Assembly: GCA_948470565.1 (NCBI GenBank)
Contig: CAOKPF010000008.1
Location: 1 to 37,927, forward strand
Origin: an uncultured Clostridium sp.
Lineage (GTDB): Bacteria > Bacillota > Clostridia > TANB77 > CAG-465
DNA: 37,927 nt
Reading direction: 5' to 3'
Numbering within the stretch: the first letter of the stretch is position 1; each line of letters opens with the position of its first letter. The translations under genes and the position numbers were made by a program. Below the pieces are notes generated by a model. The model did no database searches. It saw only the letters and a list, made by a program, of their open reading frames with translations, and was not told the DNA's origin. Of the stretch, positions 10,991-29,405 are shown one piece after another.

Positions 10991-12844
10991 TTATATCTGC
11001 TTAGGATTAATTTTTCTTAATTCTGATGGTTTATACTTATTTGGATATGCCGCATTTAGTGCATCATAAGTTTTATTCTTAAATATACTACAAACCATTC
11101 CATCAAGTCCATATTCAACTAGTATATTATGACTAAACCTGTTACAAACCTCTTCATCAGTCCAATTTAATTTTTCCTCTATCAACCACTTTATAGCCTC
11201 TATTGCTGTTTCCCTTGTCCAATAACCTCTTGGAGTAACTTTTAATTCCCACGGTTTATATTCATTTGGATAGGCTAAATTTAGTGCCATATAAATACTT
11301 CCATTAAACATATTATAAAGCATACTATATAAACCATATTGTTTAAATGTTTCAGTACTAAGTTGTTTTCTAACATCCTCATGCGACCAATTTAGTTTTT
11401 CTTCTATTAACCATTTTATAGCCTCTATTTCTGTTTCCCTTGTCCAATAACTTTTTGGAATAGGTTTTATTTCCCATCTTTTATACTCATCGGGATAAGT
11501 CGCATTTAATACCATATAAATACTTCCATCAAATATACTATTGAGCATACTATAAAGTTTATATTTTTTAAATATTTCTTTAGTAAGTTTGTTTTTTACA
11601 TCTTCATGTGACCAATTTAGTTTTTCCTCTATTAACCACTTTATAGCATCAATTGCTGTTTCTATTGTCCAATAACCTTTTGGTATAGACTTTAACTCCC
11701 ATGGTTTATATTGATTTGGATAAACTATATTTAACACTTTATATGTACTTCCGTTAAATCTTTTAATCATTCCAGCAAGTCCTGCTTCTTTAAAAGTTTT
11801 TTCACATAAATAATTACAAACATCTTCATGTGACCAATTTAACTTCTCTTCTATCAATAACTTAACTTCTCTTTTAATTCTTTTTACATTCCAATATCTT
11901 CTTGCTTCAATTAAATTATATTTTCCTGGATAAACAACTTCTAATAGGTCATTTATACTACTATTATACAAACTACAAATTATTCCACTTAACCCATTAT
12001 CTATAAAATGTTCTATGGAAAGTTCCTGTTCTATATCTTCTTCAGTAAAATGTAGTACTTGTTCTATCATATATTTTGTGATTACTTGCACTCTATATTC
12101 ATTTATGCCATTACCCTTTTTAAAATAATTATTTGGAAAAGCTTTCCGTTTCCCGCTTAGTATTAACTTATACACTTCTATTGGTGACATATCTTCGCAA
12201 TAATTTTTAAGCTTACAATTTTTATATTTACCAGGATAAACAACTTCTAGTAATTTATTTATATTTCTATTAAACATACTATTTAACATTGCATCCAATT
12301 TATTGTCTTGAAAATCTTTCCTACTCAATTTTGTAGGTATATCATCAGGTGGAATACACAAAATATTTTCAATCATATATTTAGTTACAGATCTTACCGT
12401 AAATACATTTATTTTACCATCTAATGTAAAAAAATTATTTGGAAATACTTTTATATCATTCGACAATAACAACTTATATATTTCGACAGGTGACATATAT
12501 TCTAAATAACTTTGATAACCTTTAAATTCACCAATTCTATATTCGTTAGGATATACTTTCATAATTAAATCTATTATATTCTCATCAAATTGCTTTTTTA
12601 ACATCTTGTACAGTCTATATTTTTGAAAATGCTTTTTGCTTAAATTTCTACATACATTTATATGAGAAAATTTTAATATATCTTCAATCATATACTTTGT
12701 TACAGCTCGTATGGTATAAATATTTAATTTTCCATCTAATTCAAAATAATCTTTTGGAAATTCATTTATTTCTTTACTTAATACCAATTTATACACTTCC
12801 ACTGGTTTCATTTCAAGAAGTTTCCCTCTGCTATATTTGTTCAT
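10991..12844 (-). CDS. seven-repeat protein of unknown function, 617 aa
   Basis: A soluble helical protein built from seven repeats. Units 1-3 (about 102 aa) follow MSPVEIYKL, FPNNFF, DGKIN, TKYMIE, LS..F, ML..FN, VYPGKY. Units 4-7 (about 75 aa) follow YWTRETAIEAIKWLIEEKLN, WSHEDV, F..YGL..ML, FNGSIY.ALN, YPNEYKPWEL. Both are versions of one unit: a helix ending in TKYMIE or KWLIEE, a second helix, then FN.S and YP..Y. The layout recalls helix-turn-helix repeats accompanying homing endonucleases and, from memory, DUF4046-type proteins; I cannot confirm either. No catalytic motif is seen. AGGAGGAG precedes ATG 12844. Own promoter and terminator make it monocistronic. Possibly a DNA- or partner-binding scaffold (inference). 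Confidence 0.85.
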   Translation of the reverse strand: MNKYSRGKLLEMKPVEVYKLVLSKEINEFPKDYFELDGKLNIYTIRAVTKYMIEDILKFSHINVCRNLSKKHFQKYRLYKMLKKQFDENIIDLIMKVYPNEYRIGEFKGYQSYLEYMSPVEIYKLLLSNDIKVFPNNFFTLDGKINVFTVRSVTKYMIENILCIPPDDIPTKLSRKDFQDNKLDAMLNSMFNRNINKLLEVVYPGKYKNCKLKNYCEDMSPIEVYKLILSGKRKAFPNNYFKKGNGINEYRVQVITKYMIEQVLHFTEEDIEQELSIEHFIDNGLSGIICSLYNSSINDLLEVVYPGKYNLIEARRYWNVKRIKREVKLLIEEKLNWSHEDVCNYLCEKTFKEAGLAGMIKRFNGSTYKVLNIVYPNQYKPWELKSIPKGYWTIETAIDAIKWLIEEKLNWSHEDVKNKLTKEIFKKYKLYSMLNSIFDGSIYMVLNATYPDEYKRWEIKPIPKSYWTRETEIEAIKWLIEEKLNWSHEDVRKQLSTETFKQYGLYSMLYNMFNGSIYMALNLAYPNEYKPWELKVTPRGYWTRETAIEAIKWLIEEKLNWTDEEVCNRFSHNILVEYGLDGMVCSIFKNKTYDALNAAYPNKYKPSELRKINPKQI

Positions 12845-12894
12845 AATCTCTCCTCCTAAATATATTAATATTTGAATTGACAATTTTCCAAACT

Positions 12895-13394: not shown

Positions 13395-14465
13395 TTATTC
13401 CTCAATATCAGTATCTTCAATAGCTTCGTCCTCTTTTTCAACTTCCTCAGTCATATCTCCCATACTTTTCTCAAAAGCCGTATTAAAGTTTTCCCTAACT
13501 TTTTTGTCTATTTCTTGCATAATATCTGGATGTTCTTTAAAATATATTTTCACATTTTCTCTACCTTGACCAATTTTTTGACCATTATATGAAAACCAAG
13601 CCCCACTCTTGTTTACTATATCCATATCCACGGCTAAATCTAAAACACAACCTTCATTAGAAATTCCTTCACCATAAACAATATCAAAAATTGCCTCTCT
13701 AAATGGTGGTGCAACTTTATTTTTTACTACTTTTACTTTAGTCTTACTTCCAACCATCTCACCATTTATTTTTATAACTTCCTGTTTTCTTACATCAAGC
13801 CTTACAGTTGAATAAAATTTTAATGCTCTACCTCCAGGTGTAGTTTCTGGATTTCCAAACATAACTCCCACCTTTTCACGCAACTGATTTATAAATATTG
13901 CAACTGTTTTTGACTTATTAAGTACACCTGTAATTTTTCTTAATGCCTGTGACATAAGTCTAGCTTGTAAACCTACATGAGAATCACCCATTTCACCATC
14001 AATTTCAGCCTTTGGCACTAATGCTGCAACTGAATCTATAGTGATAATGTCAACAGCTCCACTTCGTATAAGTTGTTCCGCAATTTCTAATGCTTGCTCA
14101 CCAGTATCTGGTTGTGAAACTATTAAGTTATCTATATCCACACCTATTTTTCTAGCATATACAGGATCTAAGGCATGTTCTGCATCAATAAATGCTGCAA
14201 TTCCTCCTTGTTTTTGAGCTTCAGCAATTGCATGCAATGCAACTGTTGTCTTTCCAGAAGATTCTGGTCCAAATATTTCAATAATTCTACCTCTAGGAAA
14301 TCCGCCAATTCCTAATGCAATATCCAAACTAAGTGCACCACTTGGGATTGAATCTACATTAACATTTGCAACTTCACCAAGTTTCATAACAGAACCCTTT
14401 CCAAAATTTTTTTCAATTTGAGCCATTGCTATATCTAATGCTTTTTTTCTTTCTTCTGATATCAT
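13395..14465 (-). CDS. recA: recombinase RecA
   Basis: RecA coats single-stranded DNA, drives strand exchange and triggers LexA self-cleavage. Full-length at 356 aa: N-terminal helix ([15 protein letters not shown]), Walker [10 protein letters not shown], catalytic-Glu segment IDAEHALDP, Walker [13 protein letters not shown], loop L1 around [27 protein letters not shown] leading into loop L2, and an acidic C-terminal tail ([17 protein letters not shown]). AGGAGG precedes the ATG. The promoter at 14503-14531 is consensus and is followed at once by a LexA/DinR box (14484-14497). The adhesin gene upstream lacks a visible terminator, so some readthrough into recA is possible. Confidence 0.98.
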
Positions 14466-14550: not shown

Positions 14551-16374
14551 TTAAAAACCTGTTTTGGGCAGTTCTTTTATGTATTCCATACTCTTATTTC
14601 TTATTTCCAAATTAACTATATTTTGATTTTCAGATATATTTATCTCATAATCAGTATCTGTTATATAATAAAATTTAGGTGCTTTTACCTCTTTTATATA
14701 ATAAATTCCCTCATATAGTTCATCACTTACTGCTATTCCATTTTCATCTGTAACTAAATGTCCAACTATATTACCAATTTTATCATATATGTCAAATTCA
14801 GTTCCTTTTAGTGGGGAATTTGCTTCTAACTCATTATACTTGTTATAATCCAAACTTAATTTTAGTATATTTATTTTACCTTTTACTTTTCTCATACTTT
14901 CATTTTTTACATCTAACTCAATAACTTTATTCATTTCATCTATATTAATTTCAAAAGTACTATCAGTTATATTATAATGTTGTGGTGATTTTACTTCTTT
15001 TACATAATACTTTCCTTTATACAAATCCTGACTTATCGCTACACCTAATTTATCAGTAACTAAATGCTCTACCATATTTCCATTTTCATCATATATCTCA
15101 AACTCTGCTCCTTCTAATAATGCTCCTGCCTCTTTATCGTTATACTCGTTATAATCACTGCCAGTCTTAATTATCTTTATTTTACCTTTTATTTTTTCAT
15201 TTTCAAATATTTCTTCATAACTATTTCCTTGAACAATATGTATATTTTTACTTGAATTTGACGTATCTATATAATACTTGTTTGGAACTTCTATCTCTTC
15301 AATTTTTAAGTTAACATCACCATATATACCAAAATCTTTAACAATATCAATATATATTTTTCCATCATTATCAGTTATATACTCACCCATAACTTTATTA
15401 GTATCTACATTAATTATCTTAAACTTAGTATTAGGTATTACACTTCCATCTTCCTTATCTATTTTTTTTATAACTAAACTTGTTGGCACATTTTTTACTT
15501 TAAAACTTTTAACAATATTTTCTAAATATATTGGTTTTACTGTCAAAGCTACATTTTGTGCATCAGATATACTAGATCTAGCAAAGGCAAGTGCAGTTTG
15601 CTTAGCAGTTATATTAAAATCTAGTGATATTGTATTCATATTATCTACACTATCTCTTGGAACTAGTACCTTTATTTTATCATAAGTCATGTTACCTACA
15701 ACTTGATTATTATTCATATCTGTAACAATAATTCCATTTGCCCCTCTACAATTTAATAATATACTCTCTACATTAGAATTTCTATAAATGCTATAAGTTT
15801 TAGAATAATACCTATTATCAATATTATCTATAACTCCAAATTCTCCATCTGTTACAATATTTACACCATTTCCAGACTCGTAACCACCCCTTATACCATT
15901 ATCATATATATTTCTAATAGCATTAATTACTCTTTGATATTCTGGCAATAATGGCAAAATCTGATTAAAATTTAAATTACTTACATGCATCCATACCGCA
16001 AATTGTGTAGCAAATTTTGCTTCACTTCTACTAGCTAATCCTAACTCTCCTACACTTTTATACGGATAGCCATTTAATATAATATTATTTATTACTCTAT
16101 CATTTAAACTAGTATCTACTGACACTTCATATCCATTTGCATAATCTTCAGCTCCTTTCATTCCTAAATTTATACAGTATGCATCTCTTTTTTCATTATT
16201 TTCATCTATATAAAAATAGTCAAATACTTTCTGTGGTCTTCCCTCATAACTAACATATTTATTAGCATCATGATCACAATATATATTGGTATTTTGTATA
16301 GCAAATATATTTTGAAATATATTACTAAACATTAAATTTAACATTAAAATTGCTATTACTTTTCTTTTTGTCAT
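14551..16374 (-). CDS. thioester/isopeptide surface adhesin ending at LPKTGF
   Basis: A 607-aa secreted protein. Residues 1-26 form a signal peptide. A thioester (TQXA-type) domain follows, with Cys67 in AYCINL and Gln124 in ATQFAVW, the pair that forms an internal thioester able to bind host surfaces covalently. C-terminal of it are three Cna-B/SpaA-type beta domains; the last two are tandem copies (KIIKTGSDYNEYN and NILKLSLDYNKYN; YYVKEV and YYIKEV carry the probable isopeptide Lys/Glu). The protein ends LPKTGF and stops: the hydrophobic helix and basic tail that normally follow a sortase motif are absent in all frames, since recA control DNA begins there. The start overlaps the sortase stop as ATGA, with AAGGAGGG upstream, so the two are coupled. 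Confidence 0.88.
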   Translation of the reverse strand: MTKRKVIAILMLNLMFSNIFQNIFAIQNTNIYCDHDANKYVSYEGRPQKVFDYFYIDENNEKRDAYCINLGMKGAEDYANGYEVSVDTSLNDRVINNIILNGYPYKSVGELGLASRSEAKFATQFAVWMHVSNLNFNQILPLLPEYQRVINAIRNIYDNGIRGGYESGNGVNIVTDGEFGVIDNIDNRYYSKTYSIYRNSNVESILLNCRGANGIIVTDMNNNQVVGNMTYDKIKVLVPRDSVDNMNTISLDFNITAKQTALAFARSSISDAQNVALTVKPIYLENIVKSFKVKNVPTSLVIKKIDKEDGSVIPNTKFKIINVDTNKVMGEYITDNDGKIYIDIVKDFGIYGDVNLKIEEIEVPNKYYIDTSNSSKNIHIVQGNSYEEIFENEKIKGKIKIIKTGSDYNEYNDKEAGALLEGAEFEIYDENGNMVEHLVTDKLGVAISQDLYKGKYYVKEVKSPQHYNITDSTFEINIDEMNKVIELDVKNESMRKVKGKINILKLSLDYNKYNELEANSPLKGTEFDIYDKIGNIVGHLVTDENGIAVSDELYEGIYYIKEVKAPKFYYITDTDYEINISENQNIVNLEIRNKSMEYIKELPKTGF

Positions 16375-17024
16375 TTTCCCTCCTTACTACATTTAGCTTG
16401 TACACATAATCTTTCTTTAGGTCTATTGTCAACACACGTAATAAGTGTAATTTTATTCTCATTTGTTGGCTCTAAATACTCCCAATCATAACTACTTATA
16501 TATTCTTTTAAATTAACAAAATATTGAAATTTTTCTCCATCAATACTATATTCTATTAAATCCCCATTTTCTAATTTATGGATATTAGCAAAATAATTAA
16601 CATTATAACCTCTATTATGTGCAGCAAGCCCTATATTGCCATTTTTTAAACTGGTACTTTCAAAATGCCCTATTGAACTATCAAGTACTTTTTCACTTAC
16701 TCCCTCAACAATATCTATATTATATAGCCCTAGCTTTGGAATAGATATACTTGCTATAACTTTAGTTTTTTGAAAAAAATTATCTTTTTCAAAATTTCTT
16801 TTTGAAATGTATCTTGAATAAAACTTAACATCTTTATCTTTGTTGTTATTATTTTTGCTTTTATAAGCATTATATAAATCCATAGTAAAAAATTTGAAAT
16901 AACAAATATTATTTGATTTAAAACTAATATTAAAAAATATTATAGATATAATTGTTACAGTAAATATAAAAGAAAAACTTAGAACTAATAAAATTACATA
17001 TTTTTTATTTTGTTTATTATTTAT
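16371..17024 (-). CDS. sortase, probably class D, with AUA-type start
   Basis: A cysteine transpeptidase that cleaves LPXTG proteins and joins them to another amine. One N-terminal membrane anchor is followed by the sortase barrel: GNIGLAAHNRG (catalytic His), ITLITCVDN (catalytic Cys) and ERLCVQA (catalytic Arg). The clear ribosome binding site GAAAGGAG (17033-17040) points, 8 bases on, to an in-frame ATA at 17022-17024; no ATG, GTG or TTG lies nearby. An upstream TTG (17081) is in frame but precedes the transcription start of the promoter at 17069-17097. So initiation is probably at AUA, which would keep expression low. Its neighbour and likely substrate is the adhesin, overlapping by 4 bases. 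A palindromic operator covers the start of transcription. Confidence 0.85.
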   Translation of the reverse strand: MNNKQNKKYVILLVLSFSFIFTVTIISIIFFNISFKSNNICYFKFFTMDLYNAYKSKNNNNKDKDVKFYSRYISKRNFEKDNFFQKTKVIASISIPKLGLYNIDIVEGVSEKVLDSSIGHFESTSLKNGNIGLAAHNRGYNVNYFANIHKLENGDLIEYSIDGEKFQYFVNLKEYISSYDWEYLEPTNENKITLITCVDNRPKERLCVQAKCSKEGK

Positions 17025-17048
17025 GTGTATATCTCCTTTCAGGTAAAT

Positions 17049-17063
17049 TGTAAACTGTTTACA
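17049..17063. promoter_or_regulatory. palindromic operator at the sortase-adhesin promoter
   Basis: TGTAAAC-T-GTTTACA, a perfect 15-base palindrome lying at about +1 of the promoter at 17069-17097. Its position suits a repressor. The regulator is not identified. Confidence 0.7.
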
Positions 17064-17068
17064 TATAT

Positions 17069-17097
17069 ATTTTAATACCAAAATATTATTGTGTCAA
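17069..17097 (-). promoter_or_regulatory. sigma-A promoter of the sortase-adhesin operon
   Basis: TTGACA (17092-17097), 17 bases, TAAAAT (17069-17074) on the minus strand. The start of transcription falls near 17062, within the palindrome. Confidence 0.75.
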
Positions 17098-24801: not shown

Positions 24802-25248
24802 CTAAATTATTTTCCCTTGCACAAAACATTCATAGATATAACTTGGATTTTCATAATACATACTACTATTATAATTATCTATTTTCTCTATAATCCATGA
24901 AGAGAGTACTTTTATCAATGTATTAATATATTCCTCTTCATTCTCATTAATCATTATTATTAGTCTTTCATATACTCTTCCTAACTCCCAAAAACTTGGG
25001 ATATTATTATTACATCTTAATATTACATCATAATCTCCCATTTCTATTTTATGCTTTTGAATAAGCTCGTCCGAAATCTTTTCCATGTTTTCTGAGTGAT
25101 ATATTTCTGCTAAATCGTATACTTTTTTTATACTTTCTCTTCCTAACTTTTCTACTATATACTTCTTTGTATTTTTAGTTTTTCTTGCAATATATTCAAT
25201 TAAACTACATATAAAAAATAAATCGTTTTTCTTTTGAGATTCTCCCAT
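24802..25248 (-). CDS. partner of the DUF3990-like protein
   Basis: A 148-aa soluble helical protein. The pattern DLFFICSLIEYIARKTKN, SIKKVYDLAEIYHSENMEKI, DELIQKHKIEMGDYD and SSMYYENPSYIYECF matches, from memory, a clostridial family repeatedly encoded next to DUF3990 genes; I cannot give a family number. It starts 3 bases after the DUF3990-like gene, whose end carries AAAGGAG 12 bases before this ATG, so the two are coupled. By analogy with toxin-antitoxin pairs it could be the cognate antitoxin or accessory factor; this is inference. Confidence 0.7.
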   Translation of the reverse strand: MGESQKKNDLFFICSLIEYIARKTKNTKKYIVEKLGRESIKKVYDLAEIYHSENMEKISDELIQKHKIEMGDYDVILRCNNNIPSFWELGRVYERLIIMINENEEEYINTLIKVLSSWIIEKIDNYNSSMYYENPSYIYECFVQGKII

Positions 25249-25251
25249 ATA

Positions 25252-25707
25252 TTATTTTATCTCCTTTACTCCTACAAATACTATACATTTTAAAGACTTT
25301 TCTGTACAAAATGCAATTTGATGTGTTGGATGTCTAAATTTTGCAAGTTCCCAAAATGCTTCTCTTGTAATAACTCCATCTATTAAATCAGTAATATAGT
25401 TATATACTTGATCGTCAGCCATAGCTCCAATAACTATATCATAATTATGTGTTTTTCCTCTTCTTGAATTTATTATAAAATCTAACCATTCTTCTGTCAT
25501 AACTGTAAAATTTTTTATTTTCAATGTATTATCTTCATTATATTCATACATATTAATAATTGGGGTATCATATTTTCTTGCCCATTTTTCTGCTTGCTCT
25601 GATAATATTGTACAATAAAATCCTTTGCCAAAATCCTTAGTATATTTTCCCTCAACAATTTTGGGTTCTTCAACCTTACAATAACTACCATGATAAATTA
25701 TTTGCAT
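25252..25707 (-). CDS. DUF3990-like protein, possible ADP-ribosyltransferase-type toxin
   Basis: 151 aa. The opening YHGS (5-8), then DFGKGFYCT (25-33) with SEQAEKWA and later RRGKTHNYDIVIGAMADDQV, are the signatures I associate with DUF3990. The YHG...GFY.T order also matches the His-Tyr part of H-Y-E type ADP-ribosyltransferases, so an NAD-dependent modifying activity is plausible but not shown. GAGGAG precedes the ATG. It is the first gene of the pair with 24802-25248 and lies downstream of a HipA-like kinase gene on the same strand, separated by 216 bases that contain a promoter-like palindrome. Confidence 0.75.
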   Translation of the reverse strand: MQIIYHGSYCKVEEPKIVEGKYTKDFGKGFYCTILSEQAEKWARKYDTPIINMYEYNEDNTLKIKNFTVMTEEWLDFIINSRRGKTHNYDIVIGAMADDQVYNYITDLIDGVITREAFWELAKFRHPTHQIAFCTEKSLKCIVFVGVKEIK

Positions 25708-25820
25708 AATTGTTCTCCTCTCTTATTCTTTAAAATTCTTAATATTAATAGCCTAATAGTATTTTTTCACTATTTCTAATGGAAAAATGAATTTATGTTT
25801 TTTCTATCTAACTTCATTAA

Positions 25821-25841
25821 GATTTAGTCTAAATCATTATA
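25821..25841 (-). promoter_or_regulatory. -10 box with adjoining palindrome before the DUF3990 pair
   Basis: TATAAT (25836-25841, minus strand) is followed at once by the perfect palindrome GATTTAG-T-CTAAATC (25821-25835), covering the expected start of transcription. No good -35 is seen. The layout suits autorepression by an antitoxin. The rest of 25708-25923 shows no gene. Confidence 0.5.
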
Positions 25842-25923
25842 CAATTTTTATTTTCACTTATATTTCCTTTAATTTCTTTACTTTAACGTTAACTATTTTG
25901 AATAAATCTTTATTACCACAAAT

Positions 25924-26805
25924 TTATGTCTTTATTTTGTCATAATTACATTTTAAAATCTTTTCATATCTTAATTCTATAATTTTCTTATAAAATTCTT
26001 TTCTTATATCCGAAATATATGGAGTATCATCAATAATTTTACATATTTTATTCATATCTATTTTTGGAAACATTCTTAAAAGTGCTTGATTACACTCATC
26101 TTTTTTTAAAGAATTTATAAAATCAAAATAATTTATCTTTTTATCATCTATTTTTAATGCAGATGTTGGAAATACACGTACACGTGCTTCCATTTCTTCT
26201 TCATTATTTATAATCTCTTCAATTTTTTCATCAGTCAATTGTGGATACAAGCATGATGCACAATCATAAATTGGTGCTATTTCAACCTTTTTTAAATTCT
26301 CATTTATTAAAAATCCCCAATTCCCATTATGTCTGTCAAAATTTCCTATTAAACTATCTGCAATAAACATATCCCAAAAAAACTTTTTTAACTCTCTTGT
26401 ATCATATACTAGCTGCTTATCTATTGTTTCAACGACTTCACTTAGTTCTGTTCCATATCCATTTTTAGATATTTGAATTTGACTGTTTTTTAGTTCTGCA
26501 AATTGCTTTAAAACAGTTCCTATTGATGTAAAGTCTTTACAGGCAACAACAATTTTTTCTACTCCATTTAATTTATAAGTTCCTAATAATGTCTTTTGTA
26601 CTTTTAACCCTATACTTCCAATTATCCTGCATGATATATCTTCTGAAATACAACTGTTAAAATATCCATTCTCTTTTATTCCTTCATTTATTCCAGGAAA
26701 TTTTAACATATAGTCTTCTGAATTATATTTGATACAAATTTTTCCTCCATTTTTTCCACCATAATATTTAAAATTATTTACTTGACAATTTGTAAAGTCA
26801 ACCAT
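25924..26805 (-). CDS. HipA-like (CtkA/HipT-type) serine/threonine kinase
   Basis: 293 aa. Nucleotide-binding start YYGGKNGGKICIKY, Lys35 in YMLKFPG, catalytic loop LIGNFDRHNGNWGFL (Asp157, Asn160, Asn162) and metal-binding APIYDCAS (Asp181): the HipA C-terminal kinase plan without the usual HipA N-terminal subdomain, so closer to compact CtkA/HipT kinases. Such kinases phosphorylate aminoacyl-tRNA synthetases or other proteins and block growth; the target here is unknown. GGAG is 8 bases before the ATG. No HipB-type antitoxin (helix-turn-helix) is adjacent; the gene directly upstream is a decayed relic. It may work with the DUF3990 pair downstream. Confidence 0.8.
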   Translation of the reverse strand: MVDFTNCQVNNFKYYGGKNGGKICIKYNSEDYMLKFPGINEGIKENGYFNSCISEDISCRIIGSIGLKVQKTLLGTYKLNGVEKIVVACKDFTSIGTVLKQFAELKNSQIQISKNGYGTELSEVVETIDKQLVYDTRELKKFFWDMFIADSLIGNFDRHNGNWGFLINENLKKVEIAPIYDCASCLYPQLTDEKIEEIINNEEEMEARVRVFPTSALKIDDKKINYFDFINSLKKDECNQALLRMFPKIDMNKICKIIDDTPYISDIRKEFYKKIIELRYEKILKCNYDKIKT

Positions 26806-28589: not shown

Positions 28590-29405
28590 TCATATATATT
28601 TTTCTGACATTGTCATAGCATGCATATTTAAGGCATTAATTTCTGCTACATCTAAATAAGCAGATACCATTCTATTTAATAAATCTAATTCTTTTTCTGA
28701 TAAATAATTCTTTGCAATTTCTGTTTCTGCTCTTGTAGGACTATTTCCTTTAAAATTAGTTAATCCAATATTTTCTTTTTCGCTGTCTACTCTATTAAAT
28801 ATTACTTCTGATGCAGTATTTCCTTGAACTGCATAGTGCATCTTATTTTGAACTGTTTTAAAAAATTCTTTTGTTTTTTCATCTCTTACATCATAGTCTA
28901 CACTTGTAGCATAGATATCTAAAATTTTTCTCCAAAATACTTTTTCAGATGAGCGAATATCTCTAATTTTTTCTAGTACTTCTTCAAAATATACTCCACC
29001 ACCATTATTTTTAAATCTATCAACATTCAAGTTATATCCTTTTATTAGATATTCTTTTATTAATTTATTGGTCCATATCCTAAAATGAGTACCACGAATT
29101 GACTTTACTCTATATCCTACTGCTATTATTAGGTCTAAATTATAAAATTTTGTTTTATAGTTTTTTCCATCTAAAGCAGTTGTCAAGTTTTCCTTGACAA
29201 CTGAATTTTCATCTAGTTCTTTTTCTTGAAAAATATTTTTTATATGTAAACTTATATTTTGCTTTGGTGTATCAAATAATTCTGCCATAGCATTTTGTGT
29301 CATCCAAACATTTTCATCTTCAAGTCGAACTTCTATTTTAACTTGTCCATCATCAGTTGTATATATTATAATTTCATCATTCTTTTATAGTAATTTATCA
29401 ATCAA
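28590..29405 (-). pseudogene. RhuM-family (virulence RhuM/Fic-like helper) gene with early stop
   Basis: RhuM-type proteins are frequent neighbours of restriction and toxin systems; their role is poorly known. The conserved block AMAELFDTPKQNISLHIKNI, ENSVVKENLTTALDGKNY, YNLDLIIAVGYRVKS and GTHFRIWTNKLIKEYLIKGY is intact. The true start is TTG 29405 with AGAGGAG upstream, followed by six codons, an ochre stop (29385-29387) and then KNDEIIIYTTDDGQVKIEVR in the same frame. So codon 7 has mutated to TAA. Restart at ATG 29303 would give 237 aa without the N-terminal strand. The C-terminus also ends about 60 residues early (MTMSEKYI), so the gene is damaged at both ends. Confidence 0.75.

Follow-up and report, generated by a model that had tools for sequence, protein, structure and literature searches.

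Tailless LPxTG endings conserved beside sortase genes in an order of Clostridia: a candidate tail-independent sorting signal

The adhesin locus

The window analysed here, the whole stretch of 37,927 nucleotides, belongs to a 2.1 Mb genome of 126 contigs (G000), which we compared with a sample of 27 other genomes from its genus. On its minus strand, positions 14551..16374 encode a 607-residue adhesin with a thioester domain (Pfam TED PF08341, E 5e-13, above cut-off) and SpaA domains (PF17802, E 1e-40, in three stretches). The top PDB match of its AlphaFold model was a TIE protein of Bacillus anthracis (6fwv, E 5e-44); pilins were also among the fold-search matches. A predicted hydrophobic export signal, read from the sequence, occupies roughly residues 1-25 (MTKRKVIAILMLNLMFSNIFQNIFA; 16300..16374, minus); the model has a helix at residues 4-20 within it, and its IFA-type ending is common to many relatives. 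The thioester domain (residues 65-159; 15898..16182, minus), which also scores over the cut-off of TQXA TIGR03934, contains Cys67, invariant in an alignment of 33 adhesins, and Gln124, conserved within the genus. In two adhesins from other genera (L025 and L026) the Gln124 column appears to be Lys, so their thioester bond may be lost. In the SpaA stalk (about residues 300-597; 14584..15477, minus) Lys304 and Glu360 are invariant across the 33 adhesins, and Asn392 is conserved in at least 90% of them. The protein therefore combines the Cys/Gln thioester domain and the isopeptide-type stalk domains of TIE proteins, with both kinds of bond predicted.

Known TIE proteins carry a conventional LPXTG signal with a membrane segment and a tail. 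Unlike them, the window adhesin ends ...SMEYIKELPKTGF, followed by a TAA stop. LPKTG makes up residues 602-606 and a single residue, Phe, follows the Gly, so that the tailless signal with its stop spans only 14551..14571 (minus), as read from the sequence and the orthologue alignment; the AlphaFold model suggests a flexible C-terminus (pLDDT below 50 at residues 597-607). Canonical LPXTG wall proteins (PF00746) likewise have an export signal, an LPxTG motif near the C-terminus and a sortase, but they also have a hydrophobic helix and a basic tail, both of which are possessed by other G000 proteins. A hydrophobic membrane segment after the motif was absent from the window adhesin and from 28/28 genus orthologues. 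A positively charged tail was absent too, the window adhesin ending in Phe and some relatives in a lone Lys or Arg.

The gene for recA (13395..14465, minus, start at 14465), a neighbour that lies outside the system, follows closely. Its promoter, TTGACA-17-TATAAT at 14531-14503 (minus), matches the consensus at 12 of 12 positions, and the -35 element begins 20 bases beyond the adhesin stop on the same strand. A LexA-like GAAC-N4-GTTT lies before recA at 14496-14485; the pattern is loose, with about one match expected per window, and its position is the sole argument for it. These readings agree with the preliminary description, which had the adhesin stopping right after LPKTG (we read ELPKTGF-stop), recA regulatory DNA 20 bases on, and no hydrophobic tail in any frame.

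Upstream of the adhesin, and overlapping its start by 4 bases (ATGA), lies a sortase gene (16371..17081, minus; PF04203, E 3e-21), whose last codons contain the adhesin's ribosome site, GGAGG. The encoded protein has a single hydrophobic segment, in its N-terminal part, and a complete triad, His155/Cys216/Arg224, each residue of which is invariant across 27 sortases. With the domain and the triad both present, it is by sequence a predicted sortase of family C60. Elsewhere in the window, a 630-residue repeat-unit protein (10991-12883, minus), one unit of which matches DUF4046, is flanked by purine phosphorylase-like and recX-like genes. The regions 24802-26805 and 28590-29303 (both minus) contain DUF3990, an unassigned 148-residue open reading frame and a HipA_C protein, with a RhuM-family gene nearby; together these possibly form a toxin-type module.

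Conservation of the tailless ending

In each of the 28 genus orthologues a single residue (three in one species) follows LPx[TA]G before the stop, although most are just 28-43% identical to the window adhesin, and all 28 lie directly downstream of a sortase gene. The endings include LPKTGF, LPKTGY, LPLTGNFN, LPKTGI, LPITGC, LPNTGM, LPNTGK, LPKTGC, LPSTGY, LPKAGY, LPITGM, LPITGR, LPVTGR, LPVTGK, LPVTGI and LPKTGM, with a sole A-for-T exception in the motif. Among the 33 aligned adhesins, Leu602, Pro603 and Gly606 are invariant and Thr605 is conserved in at least 90%, against a mean column identity of about 29-30%. The same type of ending recurs in relatives from other genera within the order (LPVTGY, LPKTGF); for some tailless adhesins outside the genus, we saw no sortase within the stretch read.

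The short distance of just 20 bases between the adhesin stop and the recA -35 element had raised the possibility that the tail was lost, and the adhesin brought up against the recA promoter region, through a deletion or a misassembly. However, 27 other species, in separate assemblies, have the same ending in front of different DNA: the genes 3′ of the adhesin vary (infA, PAPS-reductase-like, phosphatase-like and others), and recA does not adjoin the adhesin in the relatives inspected. Since the downstream genes differ, no deletion at recA is involved, and we regard this explanation, including the deletion put forward in the preliminary description, as refuted, its probability being close to nil. 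That description had also asked whether orthologues carry a tail beyond LPKTG; none has a full sorting signal, and 28/28 are tailless.

A hydrophobic tail could in principle be added by readthrough or frameshifting, and one frame past the stop does contain short hydrophobic, AT-rich stretches in some relatives. Their frame, distance and sequence are inconsistent across 30 loci, though, and the window locus has no such stretch in any frame. We therefore rejected a tail of this kind, which we consider extremely unlikely. Taken together, the comparison shows the missing tail to be, at the level of sequence, a conserved design that travels with a partner sortase, and not the product of a deletion or error.

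We then searched for the DNA pattern LPKTG-x-stop. It gave 55 matches in 48 of 191 genomes and 17 of 39 genera of the order, compared with 2 matches for the codon-reversed and 5 for the letter-reversed control in the same 191 genomes. These counts, together with the 28/28 genus orthologues, led us to reject a chance motif. Seven of eight matches sampled outside the genus were SpaA or TED/SpaA proteins; one sampled match (L074, in genome G070) was a chance occurrence, out of frame. In class and phylum samples outside the order, LPKTG-x-stop was at or below the control level, and we therefore make no claim wider than the order. A profile scan of named genomes, based on a narrow alignment, returned 8 loci, six of them matching genus members, while plasmid and phage collections gave distant SpaA-type matches only.

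Among the 53 matches with a true Leu, the final residue was Met in 18, Phe in 17 and Lys in 5, the others being Ile, Cys, Tyr, Val, Arg, Leu and Trp. Met or Phe thus accounted for 35/53 in the order versus 1/28 outside it (Fisher p 2e-8, a value overstated because the matches are related). Given this preference, selection seems to act on the residue after Gly, as would fit an enzyme requiring more than LPxTG.

Partner sortases and a second tailless signal

None of the sortase subfamily models reached its cut-off (160-165 bits) with the window sortase, which scored 70.5 bits for class C, 59.5 for class E and 44.7 for class D. Its best profile matches were Clostridium perfringens SrtD (4d70, 37% identity in the fold alignment) and Bacillus anthracis SrtA (2kw8), with which it shares the sortase fold and the His/Cys/Arg triad. 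Both of those enzymes are known to act on tailed substrates. In contrast, the window sortase falls in a clade of sortases with tailless substrates: in our tree the neighbours of tailless LPxTG adhesins form one group (support 97/99) and those of tailed proteins another (98/97). G000 itself also encodes a tailed TED/SpaA protein, accompanied by its own sortase and bearing the full signal LPVTGS...AKKRKSNN, as well as one further tailed protein. Judged from these sequences, sortase type and signal type go together.

Two further arrangements were seen among the adhesins. In three genomes (L009 653-1351, L088 1085-1804 and L093 1139-1816) a gene for a small secreted protein, possibly a third component, lies between the sortase and a longer form of the adhesin. 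In G000, contig C73 carries a second tailless adhesin (L057, 1527-2494, plus) that ends SGELPKTGK; it seems to have been frameshifted and cut short, and is similar to the longer, DUF11-like form that L009 and L088 carry intact.

A second type of tailless ending, unrelated to LPxTG-x, was found on Ig-like surface proteins of the genus, which end SDWV-x-NP[NY]TG[K/M]-stop; over all cases the signal reads NP[NY]TG[K/R/M]-stop. In both cases read (n=2) the protein, which has the NP[NY]TG ending after SDWV, lies beside a class-B-like sortase: L092 (914-2338, minus, on G000 contig C95) and L085 (4534-5493, minus). The pattern WVxNPxTG-x-stop occurs in 22/28 genus genomes and two from the same family, with 0 control matches. 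The class-B-like sortases of the genus form a separate, well supported branch of the tree, and the window sortase lies outside that branch. Another class-B-like sortase in G000 adjoins a protein in which EPYTGM is followed by a membrane segment. By these sequence patterns, tail loss appears to have occurred in two sortase groups of the lineage. More broadly, sorting without a tail may be a general route in the order, with separate origins in two unrelated sortase groups, one a clade that would read LPxTG-x and the other class-B-like enzymes that would read NPxTG-x. Soluble, fully exported proteins would be captured once translocated, and adhesins might even be attached in trans, on cells nearby; we offer this tentatively, at somewhat less than an even chance.

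A candidate tail-independent route to the cell wall

We consider it likely that the adhesin carries a minimal but complete sorting signal, independent of a tail and read by a dedicated sortase that anchors the protein to the wall. Most likely the entire signal would be LPxTG plus the one final residue. Translation of the adhesin would be coupled to that of its membrane-bound partner sortase, and the adhesin would leave the cell through Sec via its signal peptide. We infer that the sortase would then capture the flexible C-terminus after export, with no retention of the adhesin in the membrane, and would cut between Thr and Gly, releasing only the dipeptide Gly-Phe. The adhesin would be joined through its Thr to a wall amine, presumably of peptidoglycan or a precursor. 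Neither a hydrophobic stop-transfer helix nor a basic tail would be needed, because the motif and a local dedicated enzyme would give recognition. Part of the adhesin would probably escape to the medium. An unusual use of the motif by the adjacent sortase, one of the options of the preliminary description, is well supported by the invariance of the motif, the 28/28 sortase linkage and the separate clade.

In the textbook view, a tail that holds the protein in the membrane is essential in sortase substrates. Anchoring of a tailless protein is also unexpected because Clostridium difficile proteins that lose the whole sorting signal are released to the medium (PMC5569036), an observation that counts against it. 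On the other hand, tailless substrates should be sortable in principle, since Staphylococcus aureus SrtA anchors LPMTG-amide peptides supplied from outside, by a route that does not seem to pass through lipid II (PMC9026250). Our literature search found a sole tested precedent, AbpA/SrtB. AbpA, a small helical amylase binder with a sortase B partner, reported from oral streptococci only, ends LPKTS-AVK without a hydrophobic domain (Liang et al. 2016, PMC4974636). Its wall display requires the adjacent srtB, its 13-residue C-terminus anchors GFP, and function is lost without the last three residues, AVK; AbpA is present in the wall and partly in the medium, and forms a ladder with its sortase (PMC4974636).

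The window system resembles AbpA/SrtB in having a secreted adhesin with LPxT[S/G] at its extreme C-terminus, a dedicated neighbouring sortase gene, and neither a hydrophobic domain nor a long charged tail. It differs in that one residue follows LPxTG, rather than AVK after LPKTS; in that the sortase gene lies upstream of the adhesin (28/28 in the genus) rather than downstream; in a partner sortase that is not assigned to class B, its nearest solved relatives being SrtD and SrtA; and in a TED/SpaA adhesin family spread across an order of Clostridia.

The adhesin might instead be merely secreted, LPKTG being the remnant of a lost signal and the sortase serving other proteins, as the absence of a retention tail and the occurrence of AbpA and the C. 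difficile constructs unanchored in the medium would allow. A remnant should decay, however, yet the motif is near-invariant in 33 proteins at about 29% mean column identity, one or more residues always come after it, with Met or Phe strongly favoured order-wide, and an intact sortase always adjoins the adhesin in the genus. We therefore judge this reading improbable. Secretion, also raised in the preliminary description, may hold in part, as for AbpA in wall and medium, but alone it leaves the near-invariant motif unexplained.

We give an equally low probability to the sortase linking tailless ends to other adhesins or proteins, in a pilus- or ladder-like manner, and not to peptidoglycan. The AbpA ladder, the SpaA/pilin-type stalk domains and the pilins among the fold-search matches are in line with such polymers; however, each genus operon has one adhesin and lacks a second pilin, we identified no pilin lysine motif in the adhesin, and the sortase falls under the class C cut-off, as under that of every subfamily.

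Anchoring of the adhesin to the wall by its partner sortase would have consequences for how surface proteins are recognized. Annotation finds sortase substrates by the pattern of motif, helix and tail; tailless substrates are therefore missed, and too few surface proteins are called in the order. This system offers a natural test of the need for a tail in sorting, and a natural tag of five to six residues with its cognate sortases could serve protein ligation. What is new relative to AbpA is a shorter signal, another sortase group, another adhesin family and an order-wide distribution; a property so far reported for a single streptococcal adhesin would then hold in many species and in two or more sortase groups.
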